In this document: in pieces, positions 13,012 to 25,670 of the stretch
Layout: the number at the start of each line of letters is the position of its first letter
How positions within the stretch are numbered: position 1 is the first letter of the stretch
Source of the DNA: Flavobacteriaceae bacterium MAR_2009_75
GTDB lineage: Bacteria; Bacteroidota; Bacteroidia; Flavobacteriales; Flavobacteriaceae
Reading direction: 5' to 3'
Assembly: GCA_002813285.1 (NCBI GenBank)
Contig: PHTZ01000001.1
Span: forward strand, 3,781,501 to 3,845,500
Length of the DNA: 64,000 nt
Translations under genes and position numbers: made by a program
Notes under the pieces: model-generated
Told to the model about the DNA's origin: nothing
The model's input: the letters and a program-made list of their open reading frames with translations, nothing else
The model's database searches: none

Positions 13012-14109
13012 TTAATAATTTTGATAAAAAGTTACGTTACCATAATCGCTTGAGATAGATACTGAATTTCCGCTTTTCTCTGATCCATAATGACCTTTGT
13101 AATAATTGCTATTATTTTTCTCTTCGCTTATTTGTATTTGAAAATCATCTTTTCCTTTTACATTGGCATAAGATGTATTGATTTCAAACCCAAAATGATA
13201 TTGAGGATTATAGCCTATCTTAACTCCGGTATAATCGGTCTTTATTAGTAGGTTGCCCGCATCACGGGCCATTTGGTCAATTTTCAGTGACCCGTAATCA
13301 GCGTTAATATCTACATTACCATGTATCGTACCTAATTGAACATTGATGTAATCTCCATTACCCTGCACATTTTTAACTTCTTCCACTTCAATTTTTCCAT
13401 AATCACAAGAATACTCAAGGTTGCCCATTTCACCAATAGAAGAATTTGTATAGTCGGCGCTGATTACTAAATCTCCTGCTTTTTCTATTGTAAACCCTGA
13501 ATAATCCGCAGATATTTTTCCGCTATTTATGAATGCAATAGTAGAGTTCGAAGTGTAATCAAAGCCAAGCTGGTTGTTGCGGCCATGAAGCTCACCGATA
13601 GTCAACCGACCATAATCACAGCTTATTTTTGCGTGGCCATCAATACGGTCTAAACTAATATTACCATAGTCATTATTAAGATTTACATTTCCTTTTATCG
13701 GTAATTTTATAGTATAATTTACCTGCATATTAACATTGTTGCTCTTTCCCCAATCCCAGCCCCAGCCACTACTTTTATTATTAAAGTCGGTTCGAGCCGA
13801 GACCGTACTGCGACTTGCTTCAAAATCTATGGTTATCTCGTTCAACTTTTCCGTTACCTTTTCTTCATTATTGCCATTGGTCTTAATATGGACTTCGATC
13901 ATAATTCGATTGTCGTTCCAAGAGGTAATGTTTAAATTTCCGTAACTATTGTTTACTTCTAGAAGAGCATCTGAATTGACTTCAAATTCTTTTTTGATAG
14001 TTTTCTCTTTGGTATATTTTCCCTTTAGCCTTTCATTATTGGCAAGCACCAACACGGGAAGCATGCATACTATTAGTGAGAAATACTTAAATGGTAGTTT
14101 TTTTATCAT
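13012..14109 (-). CDS. DUF4097-like exported beta-helix protein with DYG/DYT repeats
   Basis: 365 residues with signal MIKKLPFKYFSLIVCMLPVLVLA. After the N-terminal SYGNLNITSW segment, the motif Asp-Tyr-Gly or Asp-Tyr-Thr/Ser recurs about every 20 residues (NDYGNISL, CDYGRLTI, ADYSGFTI, ADYTNSSI, CDYGKIEV, ADYGSLKI, TDYTGVKI, SDYGNVTF). This gives a regular ladder like the DUF4097 family. Probably a solenoid at the periplasm or cell surface. Its start overlaps the preceding anti-sigma-like gene by 23 bases, so it belongs to the same transcript. Biological role unknown. Confidence 0.75.
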   Translation of the reverse strand: MIKKLPFKYFSLIVCMLPVLVLANNERLKGKYTKEKTIKKEFEVNSDALLEVNNSYGNLNITSWNDNRIMIEVHIKTNGNNEEKVTEKLNEITIDFEASRSTVSARTDFNNKSSGWGWDWGKSNNVNMQVNYTIKLPIKGNVNLNNDYGNISLDRIDGHAKISCDYGRLTIGELHGRNNQLGFDYTSNSTIAFINSGKISADYSGFTIEKAGDLVISADYTNSSIGEMGNLEYSCDYGKIEVEEVKNVQGNGDYINVQLGTIHGNVDINADYGSLKIDQMARDAGNLLIKTDYTGVKIGYNPQYHFGFEINTSYANVKGKDDFQIQISEEKNNSNYYKGHYGSEKSGNSVSISSDYGNVTFYQNY

Positions 14110-14644
14110 AATCAGTTAATTCTTTAATATTTTCGATTTTATCAAGAACCTCTTGCAACAGGTCTATTCTTGTTTGGAAATTGGTAATCATTGCGCTGAG
14201 AAGCAATTTGCTATTTCCACCATTGAGAAGGTCATCTTCCAATTGAGTATAATTTTTCTCTAACTTATCTAACTGTAACATTGCATCTTCGACCAATCTT
14301 TTGGTTTCGGGCGAATTTTCTTTTTCTAACTTATCTATTTGTTGCTCGATTAGGCTGGTAAAATAGAATTCTGTTCTTGACACTTCCGGCGATATTTCAG
14401 CGACCTGTTCTTCAAGAGACTTTTCAAAAGGGAACATAAAAAAGCTTAGCGTACCAATCACTAAGATTGCTGCTGCAATATTCATTGGTTTTCGCCAAAA
14501 TACTGTCCGTTGGCTTAAACTGACAGTTTGTTGAGAAGTATTCAATTTCTCTAAAAATCGATTTTGATGACCGGCGCTCGGTTCTTCACAATCAAAATCA
14601 TCCTTGAGTTTATCAAAAAGTTTGTCTAGATTTTTATCTTCCAT
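14087..14644 (-). CDS. Probable anti-sigma factor, single membrane span
   Basis: About 185 residues from the ATG at 14644, two bases after the sigma factor stop; a longer frame to 14707 would overlap the sigma gene with unrelated sequence. Residues 1-50 are charged (EDKNLDKLFDKLKDDFDCEEPSAGHQNRFLEKL), one hydrophobic span follows (NIAAAILVIGTLSFFMFPF, about 65-85), then a long helical, coiled-coil-like domain outside. This topology and its place directly behind an ECF sigma gene suggest an anti-sigma factor, although no zinc or RskA motif is visible. Confidence 0.6.
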   Translation of the reverse strand: MEDKNLDKLFDKLKDDFDCEEPSAGHQNRFLEKLNTSQQTVSLSQRTVFWRKPMNIAAAILVIGTLSFFMFPFEKSLEEQVAEISPEVSRTEFYFTSLIEQQIDKLEKENSPETKRLVEDAMLQLDKLEKNYTQLEDDLLNGGNSKLLLSAMITNFQTRIDLLQEVLDKIENIKELTDYDKKTTI

Positions 14645-14646
14645 AA

Positions 14647-15201
14647 TCAAGCGATTAGCATCTTTTTTCGTAAGCTTTCTTTGGCCCTTGAAATAGTCGT
14701 TCTGCAATTTAAATAACTGATATTCATTATTTTACTAATTTCCTCATAATCATAACCTTCAATAAGATGTAAGGTCAAAGAAACTCTGTAATTGTCTTTC
14801 AATCTGTTCATGGTCTCCATCACTTTTTGAGCCTTTAGTTCGGTAAACACATGTTGATCTGTAACGATTTCATCATTATCTTCGACCTTATACAGTACAT
14901 CTTCTAGAGCAACTTCATTCTTTTTTTGTTGCTTTCTGTAATACTGGATACTGTTATTTACTACAATGCGTTTTAGCCAAGATCCGAAAGTCACTTCCCC
15001 CTTGAACATATGCAGTTTCATAAACGCGTTCAGAAATGATTCTTGCATAATATCTTCAGCTTGGTCACTCTTTTTTACAATTCTCAATGCCGTATTGTAC
15101 ATGGCCTTATAGTAGCGATTGTAAACTTCGAGTTGTGCGCTCTGTTTCCCTTCAAGACACAGTTGTAATAAAGCGTCAATATGTTCCTTTTTGTGGCTCA
15201 A
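14647..15201 (-). CDS. RNA polymerase sigma factor, ECF (sigma-70 family)
   Basis: 184 residues. Region 2 is LEVYNRYYKAMYNTALRIVKKSDQAEDIMQESFLNAF, including the D-x-A-E-D-I-x-Q-E-x-F signature, and region 4 is LTLHLIEGYDYEEISKIMNISYLNCRTTISRAKESL. It starts at a TTG codon: an in-frame TAA lies 15 bases upstream and no ATG lies before region 2. It heads a four-gene minus-strand operon with an anti-sigma-like protein and two repetitive envelope proteins. That suggests a cell-envelope stress regulon that autoregulates. Confidence 0.9.
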   Translation of the reverse strand: MSHKKEHIDALLQLCLEGKQSAQLEVYNRYYKAMYNTALRIVKKSDQAEDIMQESFLNAFMKLHMFKGEVTFGSWLKRIVVNNSIQYYRKQQKKNEVALEDVLYKVEDNDEIVTDQHVFTELKAQKVMETMNRLKDNYRVSLTLHLIEGYDYEEISKIMNISYLNCRTTISRAKESLRKKMLIA

Positions 15202-15535: not shown

Positions 15536-18500
15536 ATGACCTATATACCAACCACACTTTTTAGGGAAAGATTTCTTCTATTATTTTTTATTCTTTTCAT
15601 TTCTTCTATACAGATTTATAGCCAAATTCCCGTAACCGGGGTTATGGTAACCCCTGAATCCTCGACCGTTACGGAGGGCAGTACGCTGCAATTAACGGCA
15701 ACGGTTGATCCTTCGGATGCCGACGATCCGAGTGTGGCCTGGAGCATTTCAGACGAGAGCATAGCGACTGTCGACGCTACGGGCCTGGTGGCAACAATAG
15801 TCCCCGGTACGGCAACGATAACGGCAACGACCAACGACGGTGGTTTTACTGCTAGTTCGATCATAACTGTGGAATCGGCCCCGGTACCTGTTACAGGGGT
15901 GGAGGTATCTCCCGAAACCGGACTAATAGTAGTGGGCAATACGTTGCAATTAACGGCCACGGTTGATCCTTCGGATGCGGACGACCCCGGTGTGGTATGG
16001 AGCAGTTCCGACGAGAGCATAGCGACTGTCGACGCTACGGGCCTGGTGACAACGATAGTCCCCGGTACCGCAACGATAACGGCAACGACCAACGACGGTG
16101 GTTTTAGTGCTAGTTCGACCATAACGGTGGAATCGGCCCCTGTCCCGGTAACGGGAGTTACGGTGACCCCTGAATCCTCGACCGTTACGGAAGGCGGTAC
16201 GCTGCAATTAATGGCGACAGTGGAGCCGTCGGATGCCGACGATCCGAGTGTGGTATGGAGCAGTTCCGACGAGAGCATAGCGACTGTCGACGCTACGGGC
16301 CTGGTGACAACGATAGTCCCCGGTACCGCAACGATAACGGCGACCACCAACGATGGTGGTTTTAGTGCTAGTTCTATCATAACGGTGGAATCGGCGCCTG
16401 TCCCGGTAACGGGAGTTACGGTGACCCCTGAATCCTCGACCGTTACGGAAGGCGGTACGCTGCAATTAATGGCGACAGTGCAGCCGTCCGATGCCGACGA
16501 TCCGAGTGTGGTATGGAGCAGTTCCGACGAGAGCATAGCGACTGTCGACGCTACGGGCCTGGTGACAACGATAGTCCCCGGTACCGCAACGATAACGGCG
16601 ACCGCCAACGATGGTGGTTTTAGTGCTAGTTCGATCATAACTGTGGAATCGGCCCCTGTCCCGGTAACGGGAGTTACGGTGACCCCTGAATCCTCGACCG
16701 TTACGGAAGGCGGTACGCTGCAATTAATGGTGACAGTGCAGCCTTCCGATGCCGACGATCCGAGTGTGGTATGGAGCAGTTCCGACGAGAGCATAGCGAC
16801 TGTCGACGCTACGGGCCTGGTGACAACGATAGTCCACGGTACCGTAACGATAACGGCGACCGCCAACGATGGTGGTTTTAGTGCTAGTTCGATCATAACA
16901 GTGGAATCGGCGCCTGTCCCGGTAACGGGAGTTACGGTGACCCCTGAATCCTCGACCGTTACGGAAGGCGGTACGCTGCAATTAATGGTGACAGTGCAGC
17001 CGTCCGATGCCGACGATCCGAGTGTGGTATGGAGCAGTTCCGACGAGAGCATAGCGACTGTCGACGCTACGGGCCTGGTGACAACGATAGTCCCCGGTAC
17101 GGCAACGATAACCGCGACGACCAACGACGGTGGTTTTACTGCTAGTTCGATCATAACTGTGGAATCGGCCCCGGTACCTGTTACGGGGGTGGAGGTATCT
17201 CCCGAAACCGGACTAATAGTAGTGGGCAATACGTTGCAATTAACGGCAACGGTGGAGCCTTCCGATGCCGACGATCCGAGTGTGGTATGGAGCAGTTCCG
17301 ACGAGAGCATAGCGACTGTCGACGCTACGGGCCTGGTGACAACGATAGTCCCCGGTACCGCAACGATAACGGCGACGACCAACGACGGTGGTTTTACTGC
17401 TAGTTCGATCATAACGGTGGAATCGGCCCCGGTACCTGTTACGGGGGTGGAGGTATCTCCCGAAACCGGACTAATAGTAGTGGGCAATACGTTGCAATTA
17501 ACGGCCACGGTTGATCCTTCGGATGCCGACGATCCGAGTGTGGTATGGAGCAGTTCCGACGAGAGCATAGCGACTGTCGACGCTACGGGCCTGGTGATAA
17601 CGATAGTCCCCGGTACGGCAACGATAACGGCAACGACCAACGACGGTGGTTTTACTGCTAGTTCGACCATAACAGTGCAATCGGCCCCGGTACCTGTTAC
17701 GGGGGTGGAGGTATCTCCCGAAACCGGACTAATAGTAGTGGGCAATACGTTGCAATTAACGGCCACGGTTGATCCTTCGGATGCCGACGATCCGAGTGTG
17801 GTATGGAGCAGTTCCGATATCGGTCTAGCAACGGTAGACTCCCTTGGAGTTGTTACGGCAATTTCCTCCGGTACCGTTACGATAACGGCGACAACCGATG
17901 ATGGCGGTTTTGTTGACAGTTCGGAAATAACTATTAAACCTCCTTTAAATCAAGTAGGTCAATGGAGCGAACCCATTCCATTTGGTATTGTTCCAGTGGC
18001 GGTTGCAAACCTTCCTGATGGTAGATTGGTGACTTGGTCTTCAAAATACAAAGATTACTTTGGGGGTTCTGATGGATTTACATATACAGAATTATTTGAC
18101 CCTTTTATTGGACCGAATGGTATGGCTTTAGGTGAGAAAATAACTCCTACAAACCATGATATGTTCTGCCCGGGCATTAACAACTTGGGAAATGGTCAAT
18201 TATTAGTGACGGGAGGGTCGTCGAATGCCAAAAGTACTCTTTATGATTATTCTACAGATAACTGGATTGCCACGGATAACATGAATGTGGGCCGTGGTTA
18301 CCATAGTGGTGTAACTTTATCAGATGGATCTGCTTTTGTAATTGGAGGGTCTTGGAGTGGGGGTCTGGCACCCAGTGGTGAGAAAATTGGTGAAATTTGG
18401 CGACAAGAGAGAGGATGGAAAACCTTACCTGGATTGAGAAGTGATTTACTTTTTAATACTACAGATTTAGCCTTTGAGCAAGAAGGTGTTTATAGAGTAG

Positions 18501-21500
18501 ATAACCATGCTTGGTTATGGGCTGCTCCTAATGGTAAAGTTTTTCACGCTGGCCCAGGTGAAGAAATGCATTGGATAGATGTAAATGGAAGTGGGTCTTA
18601 TAGCTATGTAGGAAATAGGGCAGATGATACGTACTCGATGAAAGGGACCACTGTAATGTTCGATGTCGGAAAAATTTTAAAAGTTGGGGGTGCTACCTCA
18701 TATGCCAGTGGTGATTTAGCCAAAGATAATTCATATGTTATTGACATTAACGATGAAAATAACGTTACTGTCTCACCAACTCAAAATAAATTAAGTTTTT
18801 CTCGTACCATGCATAATAGTGTTGTTCTGCCCAACGGAGAAGTTTTGGTAACCGGAGGACTTAACTCCGCTAGGGTATTTACGGATTATGGTGCCAGATT
18901 AGATGCTGAAATTTATAATCCTACTACAAATCTTTGGAGAACTGTTGCGGGAATGAGTGTGCCGAGAACCTATCACAGTGTTTCTATTTTGCAGTCAGAT
19001 GGTCGAGTATTTGTCGGGGGGGGTGGATTATGTAACACTTGTGATAACCATTTAAATGGTGAAATATATAGCCCTCCTTATCTCTTTGATGAAAGCGGTA
19101 ATCTGGCAGAAAGACCAGTTATAGAGGCTCCAGAAGAGGTGGACTATAATAGTAGCATGACCGTTACGGGAAGTCCAGATATTGTGGATTTCAATTTGAT
19201 TAGAATGTCATCATCTACTCATAGTACTAATAATGAACAAAGAAGGGTTCCTTTAGCTTTTAGTGGCAATGGCACTTACACGCTTGCTATACCTGATAGA
19301 AATATTTTGCCCCCGGGTTATTACATGCTATTTGCTCTAAATACAGACAGGGTACCTTCAGTTTCAGAACCGGTATTGGTTGGTATGCCCGTTGTTTTGG
19401 CTTCAGGGGTATTGCTTTCACATGAAGTATTTGAGCTTAATTCAGGGGAAACAGCTCAATTGATTGCTACCGTAGTTCCCGAAAACACGGAAAACAAGAA
19501 CGTTATATGGTCAAGTAATAATCCTGCAATCGCAACTGTATCTGAAAATGGTGAGGTCACAGCACATTCAATGGGAACGGCTATTATAACTGTAACAACT
19601 GAAGATGGAGGTTTTACGGCAAAATCTAATATCGTAGTAGATGGCGGCTGTTCTTTTAGTAATATAGCGCTGGGTGCGATTGCAAATCAATCATCCACTT
19701 ATGGTAATGGTGTGGCTGCAACTGCTATAGACGGAGTAACCTCAGGTAATTCACCTTGGATACCAAATGTACAACATACGGCCAATGAGTTTTCTCCATG
19801 GTGGGAATTGGATTTAGGTTCGACTTATCTTATGGACACCTTATCTATTTATAATAGAGGTGAAGGTCTTGAAATCAGACTTAAAGATTTTTATGTTTTC
19901 GTTTCTGAAAAACCTTTTCCTTCTACCGCAACCGTTGAAAGTTTAAGCGATGATAGTTCTATATCTTCCTATTTTTTTGAAGGAGAGGCCGGACTATTGG
20001 AAAAAATAGCTCTTAATAAGGATGGTAGATATGTTCGAATTCAATTGTCAGGGGGTGGTATTTTGCATATGGCCGAGGTAGAGATACAAGGATGCTTCTT
20101 GGGTAGCCCTCTTTGTGAAGGGGTGCCTCCACCTGAGATTAGTGCCGTGGAACCATTAATTGAGTCGGATGATGTTCAAAATCTCGTCGCTTATCCTGAG
20201 GGGGGTACTTGGTCAGGAGCTAGTAGCGAAGGTACTTTTAATCCTTCCATTGGTCCGGGTACTTATGAGGTCACTTATACCTACGATAATGGTGAGGGTT
20301 GTGTTCAATCGCATTCTATCGATATGGTGGTTAACAGTGCTTGCTTTGGTATCGATCCACCAACCATAATTTCCAGTGGTCCATATTTAGATACGGATGG
20401 CATTCAAATATTGGAGGCTTTTCCAGCAGGAGGAACTTGGTCAGGAGCTAGCACGGATGGTGCCTTTGACCCAAGTTTGGGGGAAGGGATCTATTCCGTA
20501 ACCTATACATACGATAATGGAAGCGGTTGTATACAGACAGAAACAGGTGAAATTAGAGTAAATACACTTGGTAGTAGAGGCTGTGTGCTATCAAATATTG
20601 CTTTGGCAGGGGAAGCTTCCCAGTCTTCCACATATGGTAATGGAGTGGCTCAACTTGCCGTGGATGGAAATACAGAGGGCTCATCGCCATGGACTGCCGA
20701 TCTTCAGCATACTAATAATGAAAGCAAACCTTGGTGGCAGGTAGACCTAGGTTCCAACAGCGCTATTGAAGAGATACATATTTACAACAGGCAAGGGTTT
20801 GAATTTAGGTTGAAAGATTTTTACATTTTTATTTCTAATGAACCTTTCGAAATCAGTGATACTTTAGAATCCCTCTTAACCGATTCCTCCGTAACAAATT
20901 TTTATTTTAATGGTGAGGCGTCTATCGAAGAGATAATACCGTTTGATAAAGAAGGTCGTTATGTGAGAATTCAACTTAGCGGAAATAATACTTTGCACAT
21001 GGCTGAAGTTGAAATAATAGGTTGTTTGTTAGATGCAGAGGCTTGTACTGATGCGGATCCGATTGTTATCGAAAATTATGGTCCCTTTACTTCTGGCCAG
21101 TCTCTTCAGAATTTAATAGCAACTCCGGAGGGGGGTACATGGTCGGGAGTAACTACTGATGGCACATTTGATCCCTCAATTGGAGAGGGAATCTATGAAG
21201 CTACTTATACCGATGATAATGGTGAAGGTTGTTTGCAATCTCAGACGGTTAGCATTTCAGTAAATGGGCCATGTTTTGGAACAGAACCGATAACTTTTAC
21301 AGATTACGGGCCATTTTTGGACACAGAAGGTGTACAAACGGTAATAGCAAATCCTATTGGTGGAAGTTGGTCTGGAGCCATCACAGATGGTAATTTTGAC
21401 CCTAGTATTGGCGCCGGTTCATATGAGGCGATATATACATTTGATAATGGAGAGGGCTGTATCCAAACAGAAACACTTGAAATTATCGTAAACACACTAA

Positions 21501-22987
21501 GCAATAGAGGATGCATTCTTCAAAACTTAGCTTTAACCGGTTTGGCGTCTCAATCATCGATCTATGGCAATGGGGCTGCAAGTTTGGCTCACGATGGCAA
21601 TTTGGAAGGGTCTTCTGCATGGAGCGCTGACCTTCAACATACTAATAATGAATATAGGCCGTGGTGGCAAATTGACCTAGGTACGAAAGCTGCAATTGAC
21701 GAATTGAAAATATACAATAGACAAGGATTGGAATTCAGGTTGAATAATTTTTATATATTCCTCTCCGATTACCCCATATCTTCAAGCGCTACCATAGAGT
21801 CGTTACAAAATGATCCAGACGTTGTAAACTTCTTCTTTAGTGGGGAGGCGGACACGCAGGAAAATATTCTTGTAAACGGTGAGGGTAGGTATGTAAGAAT
21901 ACAGCTTTCAAGTAGCGGAATATTACATTTGCCCGAGGTTCAGGTAATGGGATGTACGGTAGATGAATCGAGCTGTGAAAACGAACCTCCTTTGACGTTA
22001 GAGGAGTATGGACCATATACGACCGAGGACGAAGTGCAGATTTTAAGTGCCAGTCCAACGGGCGGCGTTTGGTCTGGAGCAACAACAGATGGTACTTTTG
22101 ATCCAAGTATAGGCCCTGGTTTTTATGAAATTACGTATTCCTACGATAACGGTTTAGGGTGTTATCAGTCTAAGTCTATCAATATTGAAGTTAATATTAT
22201 TGGTAATTCAGGATGTGTTCTTTCCAATGGCGCCTTGAGTAAAAATGTTTTACAGTCATCTACGTATGGAAATGGTCTAGCGACTTATGCCGTAGATGGA
22301 AACATACAGGGGAGTTCACCGTGGACTGCCGATTTACAACACACCACGAACGAATTTAGACCATGGTGGCAGGTAGATTTAGGGGAAGTCCGCGAAATAG
22401 AGGAAGTAAAAATATATAATCGCAGCGATGGCCTTCAGTTCAAATTGAAAGACTTTTACGTTTTCGTATCTCAAGAGCCGATTACTGCAGAAAATTCAAT
22501 TGAAAATCTTATTTCTGATGAAAATGTAGAAAGCTATTTTTTTGCTGGCGAAGCAGACCTAATAGAGGTTATAGAAATTCTTGATTTCGGTAGATATTTA
22601 CGTATTCAACTTTCAGGAAGTGGAACATTGCACATGGCCGAGGTCGAGGTGATGGGCTGCAGTTTATCAGGTAATGGAAATGCCTTCAAGGCATCACCTG
22701 AGACTTTGTCTAGGATCAATAAATTTGATGAGTTGAAAACTGTTGAGCTTGTTCCAAACCCTACCACGGATTTTGTTCATATCAATGTGCTATCAGATGA
22801 GAATATTACAAAGATTCTTGTTTTTGATATGGAAGGAAGGCAAGTGTTGTCTAAAAAGCCAATAAGAGATTCTGTATATGAAAATGTTGAGACGATTGAT
22901 GTTTCCTTCTTCACAAAAGGAGTATATCAAATTATGATATTCTTAGATAATGGTGATATTGTAAACAGGAATTTAATAAAGAATTAA
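15536..22987 (+). CDS. Giant T9SS-secreted protein with BIG2 repeats, galactose-oxidase-like copper radical oxidase and four F5/8C domains
   Basis: 2483 residues. Domains in order: signal peptide 1-30 (ending IQIYSQ); nine BIG2 Ig-like repeats of 86 residues (31-804); a seven-bladed Kelch-type galactose oxidase module with DUF1929 C-terminal domain (about 805-1285); a tenth, divergent BIG2 (1286-1370); four F5/8C-like domains (about 1371-1520, 1682-1832, 1992-2140, 2226-2377) separated by two, two and one SprB/PKD-like linkers with GGTWSG..FDPS.G; and a type A T9SS sorting domain (about 2400-2483, VELVPNPTTDFVHINV to the end). The oxidase module keeps Cys878 and Tyr922 (thioether cofactor pair), stacking Trp940, Tyr1146, His1147 and His1229. 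It therefore probably oxidises primary alcohols of sugars or other carbohydrates outside the cell with O2, yielding H2O2. F5/8C domains would bind glycans. The natural substrate is unknown. Confidence 0.9.
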   Translation: MTYIPTTLFRERFLLLFFILFISSIQIYSQIPVTGVMVTPESSTVTEGSTLQLTATVDPSDADDPSVAWSISDESIATVDATGLVATIVPGTATITATTNDGGFTASSIITVESAPVPVTGVEVSPETGLIVVGNTLQLTATVDPSDADDPGVVWSSSDESIATVDATGLVTTIVPGTATITATTNDGGFSASSTITVESAPVPVTGVTVTPESSTVTEGGTLQLMATVEPSDADDPSVVWSSSDESIATVDATGLVTTIVPGTATITATTNDGGFSASSIITVESAPVPVTGVTVTPESSTVTEGGTLQLMATVQPSDADDPSVVWSSSDESIATVDATGLVTTIVPGTATITATANDGGFSASSIITVESAPVPVTGVTVTPESSTVTEGGTLQLMVTVQPSDADDPSVVWSSSDESIATVDATGLVTTIVHGTVTITATANDGGFSASSIITVESAPVPVTGVTVTPESSTVTEGGTLQLMVTVQPSDADDPSVVWSSSDESIATVDATGLVTTIVPGTATITATTNDGGFTASSIITVESAPVPVTGVEVSPETGLIVVGNTLQLTATVEPSDADDPSVVWSSSDESIATVDATGLVTTIVPGTATITATTNDGGFTASSIITVESAPVPVTGVEVSPETGLIVVGNTLQLTATVDPSDADDPSVVWSSSDESIATVDATGLVITIVPGTATITATTNDGGFTASSTITVQSAPVPVTGVEVSPETGLIVVGNTLQLTATVDPSDADDPSVVWSSSDIGLATVDSLGVVTAISSGTVTITATTDDGGFVDSSEITIKPPLNQVGQWSEPIPFGIVPVAVANLPDGRLVTWSSKYKDYFGGSDGFTYTELFDPFIGPNGMALGEKITPTNHDMFCPGINNLGNGQLLVTGGSSNAKSTLYDYSTDNWIATDNMNVGRGYHSGVTLSDGSAFVIGGSWSGGLAPSGEKIGEIWRQERGWKTLPGLRSDLLFNTTDLAFEQEGVYRVDNHAWLWAAPNGKVFHAGPGEEMHWIDVNGSGSYSYVGNRADDTYSMKGTTVMFDVGKILKVGGATSYASGDLAKDNSYVIDINDENNVTVSPTQNKLSFSRTMHNSVVLPNGEVLVTGGLNSARVFTDYGARLDAEIYNPTTNLWRTVAGMSVPRTYHSVSILQSDGRVFVGGGGLCNTCDNHLNGEIYSPPYLFDESGNLAERPVIEAPEEVDYNSSMTVTGSPDIVDFNLIRMSSSTHSTNNEQRRVPLAFSGNGTYTLAIPDRNILPPGYYMLFALNTDRVPSVSEPVLVGMPVVLASGVLLSHEVFELNSGETAQLIATVVPENTENKNVIWSSNNPAIATVSENGEVTAHSMGTAIITVTTEDGGFTAKSNIVVDGGCSFSNIALGAIANQSSTYGNGVAATAIDGVTSGNSPWIPNVQHTANEFSPWWELDLGSTYLMDTLSIYNRGEGLEIRLKDFYVFVSEKPFPSTATVESLSDDSSISSYFFEGEAGLLEKIALNKDGRYVRIQLSGGGILHMAEVEIQGCFLGSPLCEGVPPPEISAVEPLIESDDVQNLVAYPEGGTWSGASSEGTFNPSIGPGTYEVTYTYDNGEGCVQSHSIDMVVNSACFGIDPPTIISSGPYLDTDGIQILEAFPAGGTWSGASTDGAFDPSLGEGIYSVTYTYDNGSGCIQTETGEIRVNTLGSRGCVLSNIALAGEASQSSTYGNGVAQLAVDGNTEGSSPWTADLQHTNNESKPWWQVDLGSNSAIEEIHIYNRQGFEFRLKDFYIFISNEPFEISDTLESLLTDSSVTNFYFNGEASIEEIIPFDKEGRYVRIQLSGNNTLHMAEVEIIGCLLDAEACTDADPIVIENYGPFTSGQSLQNLIATPEGGTWSGVTTDGTFDPSIGEGIYEATYTDDNGEGCLQSQTVSISVNGPCFGTEPITFTDYGPFLDTEGVQTVIANPIGGSWSGAITDGNFDPSIGAGSYEAIYTFDNGEGCIQTETLEIIVNTLSNRGCILQNLALTGLASQSSIYGNGAASLAHDGNLEGSSAWSADLQHTNNEYRPWWQIDLGTKAAIDELKIYNRQGLEFRLNNFYIFLSDYPISSSATIESLQNDPDVVNFFFSGEADTQENILVNGEGRYVRIQLSSSGILHLPEVQVMGCTVDESSCENEPPLTLEEYGPYTTEDEVQILSASPTGGVWSGATTDGTFDPSIGPGFYEITYSYDNGLGCYQSKSINIEVNIIGNSGCVLSNGALSKNVLQSSTYGNGLATYAVDGNIQGSSPWTADLQHTTNEFRPWWQVDLGEVREIEEVKIYNRSDGLQFKLKDFYVFVSQEPITAENSIENLISDENVESYFFAGEADLIEVIEILDFGRYLRIQLSGSGTLHMAEVEVMGCSLSGNGNAFKASPETLSRINKFDELKTVELVPNPTTDFVHINVLSDENITKILVFDMEGRQVLSKKPIRDSVYENVETIDVSFFTKGVYQIMIFLDNGDIVNRNLIKN
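15626..17947 (+). repeat. Nine tandem 258-bp coding repeats (BIG2 domains)
   Basis: Units begin at 15626, 15884, 16142, 16400, 16658, 16916, 17174, 17432 and 17690, each 86 codons. Two alternative head sequences occur: type A (VTVTPESSTVTEGGTLQL) in units 1, 3, 4, 5, 6 and type B (VEVSPETGLIVVGNTLQL) in units 2, 7, 8, 9. The remaining two thirds are nearly identical in units 2-8, including a GTCGAC in every one of units 1-8. Unit 9 diverges in its second half. The array is richer in G+C than the flanks. Confidence 0.95.
18161..19390 (+). other. Catalytic core of the galactose-oxidase-like (AA5) module
   Basis: Within the giant gene. FCPG (Cys878), RGYHS (Tyr922), GGSWSGG (Trp940), YRVDNHAW (Arg987), RTYHS (Tyr1146, His1147) and STHSTN (His1229) correspond in order to Cys228, Tyr272, Trp290, Arg330, Tyr495/His496 and His581 of Fusarium galactose oxidase as I recall it. 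The spacings 44 and 18 between the first three are the same. The galactose-contacting Gln406 position reads Leu1109. Confidence 0.85.
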
Positions 22988-23201: not shown

Positions 23202-25670
23202 ATGACTGTAAATGATACTATGGGAGATTCTAAATTTTCAAATTTTGACAATATGTCGTTGCACTCCATCGATGAAGATGCAGAGCTTATACCATTACTT
23301 ACCCCGGAGGACGAAGAGGAAATGAATAGCGAAGCACTTCCTGAAACGCTTCCTATTTTGCCTTTGAGAAATACAGTACTGTTTCCTGGGGTAGTAATAC
23401 CTATTACAGCCGGCAGAGATACCTCGATAAATCTTATTAAAGATGCCAATAATGGTACGAAGGTTATTGGTGTGGTTTCGCAAAAGGACGAGGCTACCGA
23501 GAATCCGAAGGTCAATGATATTAATGTTTTGGGAACGGTAGCTAGAATATTGAGGGTTCTTAAAATGCCTGACGGAAATACCACGGTAATTCTTCAAGGG
23601 AAGAAACGTTTTGAGATTGCTGAAATGCTTACCGAGAAACCATATATGACGGCTACGGTAAGAGAAGTGACCGAAGAAAGAGGTGATCAGCACGGTCAGG
23701 AGTTTTTGGCCATAATAGAATCTATTAAAGAGCTGGCACTGAAGATTATTCGCGATAATCCGAATATACCCAGCGAGGCCTCTTTTGCCATCAAGAACAT
23801 TCAGAGCAACTCTTTTTTAATCAATTTTGTTTCCTCGAATTTAAATCTTGATGTTAAGGAGAAACAAGAGTTGTTAGAGATTAATAGCTTGCGCGAACGT
23901 GCTTTGGCTACTTTAAAGTATATGAATCTTGAACTTCAAAAGTTGGAGTTGAAGAATGATATACAGTCCAAAGTAAGAAGTGATCTGGATCAACAGCAGC
24001 GTGAGTACTTTCTTCATCAACAAATGAAGACCATTCAAGAAGAACTGGGTGGTGTATCGCATGATGATGAATTAGTCGAGATGCGTAAAAGATCTAAAAA
24101 GAAAAAATGGAGTGAAAAAGTTGGCGAACATTTTGAAAAAGAGTTGGCCAAAATGCAGCGTATGAATCCGCAAGTGGCGGAATATTCTATCCAAAGAAAT
24201 TATTTGGATTTATTCTTAGACCTTCCATGGAATGAATTTTCAAAGGATAAATTTGACCTGAAACGTGCGCAACGAATTTTAGACCGAGACCATTATGGTC
24301 TTGAAGACGTCAAGAAAAGAATAATTGAATATCTAGCGGTGTTGAAACTCCGTAATGATATGAAGTCACCTATATTGTGCTTATACGGACCTCCAGGTGT
24401 CGGAAAAACATCGTTGGGTAAGTCGGTCGCCGAGGCTTTAGGTAGAGAATATGTACGCATGTCTTTAGGTGGTTTGCGTGATGAGGCTGAAATACGCGGG
24501 CATCGTAAGACATATATCGGGGCAATGCCTGGTAGGGTTGTTCAAAGTCTTAAAAAGGCAGGTACTTCGAATCCGGTTTTTATTCTAGATGAAATCGATA
24601 AGTTGGCAAGTAGTCACCAAGGTGACCCTTCTTCTGCGATGCTTGAAGTATTGGATCCAGAACAAAATGGTGAATTCTATGATAATTTCTTAGAGATGGG
24701 CTATGATCTTTCTAAGGTCATGTTTATAGCTACGGCAAATAATCTTTCAACTATTCAGCCTGCCTTACGTGATCGAATGGAAATCATTAACGTAACAGGT
24801 TATACTATAGAAGAGAAGGTCGAAATCGGAAAGCGACATCTTCTGCCAAAACAATTGAAGGAACATGGGTTGACATCAAATCACTTGAAAATCGGGAAAC
24901 CTCAATTGGAAAAGATTGTTGAGGGTTATACCCGCGAATCGGGTGTGCGTTCGCTAGAAAAGCAAATCGCAAAAATGGTTCGGTATGCGGCGACCAATAT
25001 TGCCACTGAAGAAGAGTATGATATTAAGGTTTCGAATGCCATTATCGAAGATGTTCTCGGGCCGGCGCGTTTAGAACGCGATAAATATGAAAATAATGAT
25101 GTTGCTGGAGTGGTTACTGGGCTTGCTTGGACGAGTGTTGGGGGCGATATTCTCTTCATTGAATCGATTTTATCCAAGGGTAAAGGCGCAATGAACATTA
25201 CCGGAAACTTAGGCAAGGTGATGAAAGAGTCTGCTACCATTGCTCTGGAATATATTAAATCTAATTCCGATAGATTCGGTCTTGATTCTGGCATATTTGA
25301 AAAATACAATGTACATATTCATGTACCGGAAGGTGCCACCCCTAAAGATGGGCCTAGTGCGGGGATTACCATGCTTACATCGCTGGTATCACTATTTACC
25401 CAGAAAAAGGTCAAAAAGAGTTTGGCTATGACCGGTGAGATTACGCTTCGTGGTAAAGTACTTCCGGTAGGGGGTATAAAAGAAAAAATCTTAGCTGCAA
25501 AACGAGCGAGAATAAAAGAAATTATTCTCTGTAAAGACAATGAAAAAGACATCTTAGAAATTAAAAAGGAGTACCTTAAGGGTTTAAATTTTCATTACGT
25601 AACCGATATGCACGAGGTAATCGATATCGCCATTACTGGTCAAAAAGTGAAGAACGCCAAAAAGTTATAA
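23202..25670 (+). CDS. lon: ATP-dependent protease La
   Basis: Cytoplasmic AAA+ serine protease degrading misfolded and regulatory proteins. 822 residues: N-terminal LAN domain ([19 protein letters not shown] near residue 50), coiled coil, AAA+ module with Walker [10 protein letters not shown] (Lys402) and Walker [11 protein letters not shown], and protease domain with Ser719 in DGPSAG and Lys762 in GGIKEK, 43 residues apart as in E. coli Lon. The N-terminal 45 acidic residues are longer than in E. coli, as in many Bacteroidota. Met codons at 23220 and 23253 are alternative starts. cmk overlaps by one base. Confidence 0.97.

Follow-up and report, generated by a model that had tools for sequence, protein, structure and literature searches.

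In the 64,000-nucleotide window analysed here, a stretch of the genome of Flavobacteriaceae bacterium MAR_2009_75, one gene encodes a giant protein whose catalytic core is that of a copper-radical oxidase of family AA5 (AA5_2-like); its substrate is predicted only, and calling it a galactose oxidase or a mature radical enzyme is likewise a prediction. From the sequence and a structural model, we consider it likely that this oxidase is active and that, carried on a substrate of the type IX secretion system (T9SS), it modifies surface or algal polysaccharide. Oxidase chemistry of the core, as predicted from residues and fold, is very probable. The genome searched is complete, on one contig of 4.76 Mb, and the gene and its core were located as follows.

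15536..22987, + strand: open frame of the AA5 oxidase, 2,483 residues, the only AA5 gene in the genome
17960..19381, + strand: AA5 catalytic core (residues 809-1282), a kelch-type beta-propeller followed by an E-set (phmmer, AlphaFold2, Foldseek)

Over about 470 residues, phmmer matched the core to the bacterial galactose oxidase structures 9g8h and 9g43 far beyond chance (E = 2.6e-129) and to fungal galactose oxidase (GalOx; 1gof) with E = 2.7e-101. The 1gof match scored 343 bits versus 99 for Streptomyces GlxA (4unm), while a profile search gave 541 bits for 1gof, 194 for 4unm and 109 for the glyoxal oxidase 9n3u. In sequence, the core is nearer to AA5_2 than to the glyoxal oxidases or GlxA, although the meaning of the AA5_2 label is bounded here by the definition of the CAZy AA5 subfamilies on fungal sequences (PMC13094651). 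Neither Pfam nor NCBIfam names the whole propeller. A check against AA5 profiles, proposed in the initial annotation, succeeded for the E-set model, GO-like_E_set (PF09118; 71 bits, cut-off 25), but not for Glyoxal_oxid_N, which stayed below its cut-off, nor for the GlxA equivalog NF052501 (122-129 bits versus a cut-off of 800).

An AlphaFold2 model of the core, built with 32 natural sequences, reached a mean predicted local distance difference test score (pLDDT) of 89.9 and a predicted template modelling score (pTM) of 0.91. Using Foldseek, we found that it superposes on 9g43/9g8h with a template modelling (TM) score of 0.91 at 1.4-1.5 Å and 47% identity, and on 1gof with TM 0.92, the top GalOx superpositions spanning 1.4-2.0 Å. 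The model has the GalOx fold, a kelch-type propeller with a C-terminal E-set (TM 0.91-0.92 to 9g43/1gof), and the superposition suggested earlier thus agreed in both fold and register. GlxA 4unm gave TM 0.77-0.78 at 20% identity and 9n3u gave TM 0.80 at 21%. Based on the GO-like_E_set score, the PDB sequence matches and the structural model, we assign the core to AA5, as had been proposed. GlxA, previously taken as the bacterial reference, was ruled out as the closest relative by its NF052501 score, phmmer bits and Foldseek identity and TM; the nearest solved relative is instead the bacterial galactose oxidase 9g43/9g8h, released in 2025. The oxidase domain had also been placed at 18161-19390. 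The active site does lie inside that interval, but its extent was too small, as the core runs from about 17960 to 19381 and 18161 is an internal position.

The residue register was taken from a 58-sequence alignment that includes GalOx. The following positions, all on the + strand, were read from it.

18167..18169, +: Cys878, equivalent to GalOx Cys228, thioether partner
18299..18301, +: Tyr922, equivalent to Tyr272, thioether partner and copper ligand
18353..18355, +: Trp940, equivalent to Trp290, stacking residue
18482..18496, +: Glu983 (Gln326), Tyr986 (Tyr329) and Arg987 (Arg330; codon 18494-18496), substrate side
18704..18706, +: Ala1057 (Gln406); the galactose C2-OH ligand of GalOx is gone (role from PMC6519835)
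18971-18973, +: Tyr1146, equivalent to Tyr495, catalytic Tyr and copper ligand
18974-18976, +: His1147, equivalent to His496, copper ligand
19220..19222, +: His1229, equivalent to His581, copper ligand in the E-set domain (PF09118 at residues 1193-1280)

The full GalOx-type residue set read in the initial annotation is borne out: C878/Y922/W940/R987/Y1146/H1147/H1229 occupy the columns of GalOx 228/272/290/330/495/496/581, and the thioether Cys-Tyr pair, second Tyr and two His ligands are all present as residues, the bond itself lying beyond an alignment. The first two gaps, 44 and 18, are indeed identical to those of GalOx, while the later ones are 47, 159 and 83 versus 40, 165 and 86. The GalOx disulphide pair C515/C518 is matched by C1166/C1169. 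Among 20 different flavobacterial homologues and another 30, most of them burkholderial, the positions C228, Y272, W290, R330, Y405, F464, Y495, H496, C515, C518 and H581 (GalOx numbering) are invariant. Outside this set, Hahella homologues (L047, L048, L051) and a homologue in a cyanobacterial metagenome-assembled genome (MAG; L042) keep all copper and thioether residues, but carry Gly and Arg, respectively, at Trp290.

The substrate pocket is less conserved. R330, Y329, Y405, F194 and F464 are retained relative to GalOx, whereas Q326, Q406 and F441 are replaced by Glu983, Ala1057 and Met1092, so that of the galactose ligands of AA5_2 Tyr329 and Arg330 are kept and Gln326 and Gln406 are lost. 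In GalOx, galactose is bound by Gln406 and, through bidentate bonds, by Arg330, to which Gln326 bonds in turn, and Phe441 stacks on Tyr495; positions 326 and 406 also vary among characterised AA5_2 carbohydrate oxidases (PMC6519835). Position 326 is E, Q, R or A within the flavobacterial clade, and Glu326 has been found in two aryl-alcohol oxidases, there combined with Lys330 (PMC8207647). Position 463 is Val, as in 15 of the 20 flavobacterial sequences. Since Arg330 and Tyr329 are kept, galactose-type C6 hydroxyls are likely substrates, and since Gln326, Gln406 and Phe441 are replaced, specificity should differ from that of fungal GalOx. The pocket is non-canonical, and the protein is better described as a predicted primary-alcohol or sugar oxidase than as an established galactose oxidase.

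Around the core, the protein is built from repeats and export signals.

15536..15625, +: putative signal peptide for Sec export, spanning roughly residues 1-30, MTYIPTTLFRERFLLLFFILFISSIQIYSQ (read by eye from its hydrophobic core and basic N-region)
15629..17941, +: nine tandem Big_2 Ig-like repeats of 86 residues (258 bp) each, preceding the catalytic domain (Pfam PF02368, 86-residue spacing)
19394..19645, +: tenth Big_2 domain, immediately after the core (PF02368 at query-piece residues 486-555; self-match 479-562)
19649..22663, +: four galactose-binding-type domains (F5/8 type C, NedA-like; PF00754/PF22633, four stretches each)
22754..22984, +: sorting domain of T9SS type A (residues 2407-2483; PF18962, TIGR04183)

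The sorting domain scores above cut-off in both models (PF18962, 37.1 bits, cut-off 27; TIGR04183, 28.6 bits, cut-off 23), and the genome contains a SprA homologue (SprA_N, 439 bits) and 15 matches to T9SS tails. Display of the oxidase at the cell surface through T9SS is thus highly likely on sequence grounds, and the earlier description of a giant T9SS-secreted protein of Bacteroidota origin stands. The four F5/8 type C domains alternate with five spacer modules (GGTWSGA...DNGEGC type). PF02368 matches ten stretches in the whole protein, nine before the core and the tenth after it. The ortholog in one other genome of the same genus (L009; 1,968 residues) has four Big_2 domains versus these ten despite a 97% identical core, which indicates that the length of the Big_2 stalk changes fast. 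Tandem Repeats Finder described the array as 258 bp x 8.5 copies with 92% matches; at 15628-17817 it repeats in units of 258 bp, adjacent units being up to 98% identical. An open antisense frame of 716 residues (15616-17766, - strand) overlies the array and was set aside as a gene, being probably a by-product of the tandem repeats.

In the mechanism that we propose, copper and O2 would form the Cys878-Tyr922 thioether radical cofactor after Sec export, with the metal held by Tyr922, Tyr1146, His1147 and His1229. T9SS would then carry the protein to the outer surface, where the Big_2 array may form its stalk, with the four F5/8 type C domains perhaps anchoring the enzyme on carbohydrate. There it would turn primary alcohols, in polysaccharide or in small molecules, into aldehydes and O2 into hydrogen peroxide (H2O2). 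The likely substrates are the C6 hydroxyls that galactose-type or similar units present in cell-surface or algal polysaccharide.

We searched 84,980 species genomes with patterns derived from the window's own sequence, so that distant relatives are undercounted among the 56 loci found. Nearly all are in Flavobacteriaceae and Burkholderiaceae, the few others being in Hahella, one cyanobacterium and other phyla. The gene occurs in 10 of 201 sampled Flavobacteriaceae genomes (one copy cut by a contig end) and in 5 of 396 genomes sampled from the phylum. Over the core, the closest named relatives are Pseudozobellia sp. WGM2 (97%) and, at 79% each, Zobellia uliginosa and Pseudozobellia thermophila, which places the window among Zobellia-like Flavobacteriaceae. 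Bacteria with a complete AA5_2-like site are no exception, as close homologues, besides the solved 9g43/9g8h, are common in Burkholderiaceae and present in Flavobacteriaceae. The homologues anticipated in flavobacteria were found and form a single clade (support 100/100), sister to Burkholderiales, 9g43 and fungal GalOx. The sole fungal sequence in the tree sits on a long branch beside 9g43, and any horizontal transfer between fungi and bacteria may have run in either direction.

The relatives' gene contexts offer a lead on function. Five genera have AA5 paralogues, seven in total, at distances of 2.6-4.3 kb from wza, within capsule or exopolysaccharide clusters that include wzc, wza, a Polysacc_synt_2 dehydratase, a DegT aminotransferase or sugar transferase, and CpsB/CapC.

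L089, L090, L092, L095, L015: capsule-linked AA5 loci (beside wza/wzc)

In two genera (L089, L090), a pair of AA5 genes of different subclades flanks the same capsule block. Each capsule-linked genome has one or two wza genes, giving a chance of about 0.3-0.8% that a given AA5 gene falls within 7 kb of one, a figure limited by the shared ancestry of these events. In a Croceivirga MAG, the neighbours of the AA5 gene encode Wzy, glycosyltransferases and a UDP-sugar dehydrogenase. Given the capsule clusters beside the paralogues, modification of extracellular polysaccharide is our best guess for the role of the clade, and the contexts hint that the flavobacterial AA5 family oxidises cell-surface polysaccharides, releasing H2O2. 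We regard the chances that polysaccharide is the true target, a lead taken from paralogue context, as evenly balanced. Several observations weigh against our main reading. The window's own gene adjoins no polysaccharide or copper genes, only core-synteny neighbours; the capsule-linked paralogues all belong to one subclade, which is not that of the window gene; and the tree needs three changes between the two contexts, so the capsule linkages are few independent events. In the pocket, position 406 is Gln in none of the 20 flavobacterial sequences (Ala in MAR_2009_75), and 15 of them have Met at position 441. Elsewhere, in two Winogradskyella-like genomes, the AA5 gene adjoins HlyD/CusB-DUF3347 and AcrB-family efflux genes (L017:2046-7464; same block in L019), possibly for metal efflux and maybe copper handling. 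In two other Winogradskyella genomes (L014:13400-17449, L016) it is followed by a GSDH/cytochrome c/ricin-lectin/Big_2 protein of at least 1,350 residues, a second redox protein that may be secreted.

A narrower role, as a true galactose 6-oxidase that acts, while the cell feeds, on galactans of algae (agar, carrageenan, porphyran), we consider unlikely, though it fares best among the alternatives. The retained Arg330 and Tyr329, the NedA-like galactose-binding-type domains and the relatives among Zobellia and other marine flavobacteria are consistent with it, as are the galactose bound in 9g8h, the closest solved relative, and the use of fungal GalOx to modify agarose (PMC9914589). It is opposed by the changes Gln406 to Ala, Gln326 to Glu and Phe441 to Met, by the position of the gene outside any polysaccharide-utilisation locus, and by the paucity of GH16 enzymes (2 matches).

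Somewhat less likely still is that the enzyme serves H2O2 supply, oxidising small primary alcohols or algal sugars to feed secreted or envelope vanadium haloperoxidases, with glycan change not its job. Vanadium haloperoxidases need H2O2 to make hypohalous acids. At other sites the genome encodes three relatives of these enzymes (L114, L115, L117), one of which is orthologous to the solved vanadium haloperoxidase 4cit (E = 3.7e-248); L116, in the same genome, is a more distant PAP2 protein. The 4cit-type enzyme occurs in 8 of 10 AA5-bearing versus 80 of 191 other genomes of the family (Fisher one-sided p = 0.02), but this association is weak, being uncorrected for kinship, genome size and marine habitat. 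Moreover, haloperoxidases are common in genomes without AA5, and the oxidase and haloperoxidase genes are unlinked, at least 0.8 Mb apart. Alcohol oxidase-peroxidase pairs, described for fungi (PMC9770985), provide a precedent for such supply. A composite of these ideas, in which the T9SS-exported oxidase places aldehydes on the cell's own capsule or exopolysaccharide after export, a maturation of surface glycan parallel to and evolved separately from CslA-GlxA of Streptomyces, while its H2O2 feeds envelope vanadium haloperoxidases, is improbable. Finally, a dead propeller acting as a mere binding module of an adhesin would suit the giant repeat-rich architecture, the altered pocket residues and the loss of Trp290 itself in Hahella and cyanobacterial relatives, but is very improbable, since such a domain would hardly keep the copper, thioether, Trp290, Arg330 and Tyr405 positions invariant in 20 of 20 flavobacterial sequences.

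The gene lies between two core-synteny landmarks.

14650..15201, - strand: extracytoplasmic function (ECF) sigma factor, bordering the synteny gap on its left side (Sigma70_r2/r4_2)
23202..25670, + strand: Lon protease, so named from its sequence, bordering the gap on its right side (open frame, synteny)

In the window, as at ten further loci of which some are truncated by contig ends, the oxidase gene sits between the ECF-sigma operon and lon, or beside the operon. The order M48-MFS-[DUF2807, DUF4097-like, antisigma, ECF]-lon is also conserved in relatives lacking the oxidase. Among nine such relatives, both borders could be located in six, where the ECF-lon gap measures 0.2-0.3 kb in five and 1.3 kb in one. 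As ECF and lon are near-adjacent there, we take the oxidase gene to be accessory and to occupy a gap in the core synteny; its neighbours, being part of flavobacterial core synteny, are uninformative on function. The ECF-sigma operon was set aside as a functional partner because relatives without the oxidase keep the same order. Two proteins in this operon (13015-14109 and 14090-14707, both - strand) have no Pfam match and stay beside DUF2807 across Flavobacteriaceae.

In the open-access literature, we found no report of a Bacteroidota AA5 oxidase and none of one secreted as a T9SS substrate. Structures of bacterial AA5_2-like enzymes already exist; the new parts are the monophyletic flavobacterial clade, the T9SS architecture and the capsule-cluster paralogues. 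If active, these enzymes would offer biocatalysis a new pocket (Glu326/Ala406/Met441) among bacterial copper-radical oxidases, and the recurring capsule-cluster setting of the paralogues makes a bacterial AA5 role testable in a culturable non-Streptomyces group.

Among known systems, the galactose oxidase of Pseudarthrobacter siccitolerans (9g43, 9g8h) shares the core fold, the cofactor residues and 47-49% identity, and it also lacks Gln326 and Gln406 (Gly and Asp there). Phe441 and Pro463, replaced by Met and Val in the MAR_2009_75 protein, are retained there, and the solved chain of 617-618 residues is about a quarter as long. Fusarium GalOx (1gof), the fungal AA5_2 enzyme, has the seven active-site residues, the C515/C518 pair and the E-set in common at 42% identity, but carries one N-terminal CBM32-type domain versus four C-terminal F5/8 type C domains, and has Gln326, Gln406 and Phe441 and no T9SS tail, the opposite of the MAR_2009_75 protein. 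The Burkholderiaceae homologues (Paraburkholderia, Caballeronia) are 43-50% identical across the core with the same active-site set, and differ in their mostly 660-870-residue frames, other accessory parts and separate clade; an AA5-CE3 fusion of Burkholderia pseudomallei is cited in PMC11267884. Streptomyces GlxA (4unm), reported to work with CslA in glycan deposition (PMC4736821), shares the superfamily and cofactor and is likewise linked to an extracellular glycan, but at about 20% identity and TM 0.78 it is not the nearest relative; the capsule-linked flavobacterial paralogues recall cslA-glxA as a parallel rather than as evidence.

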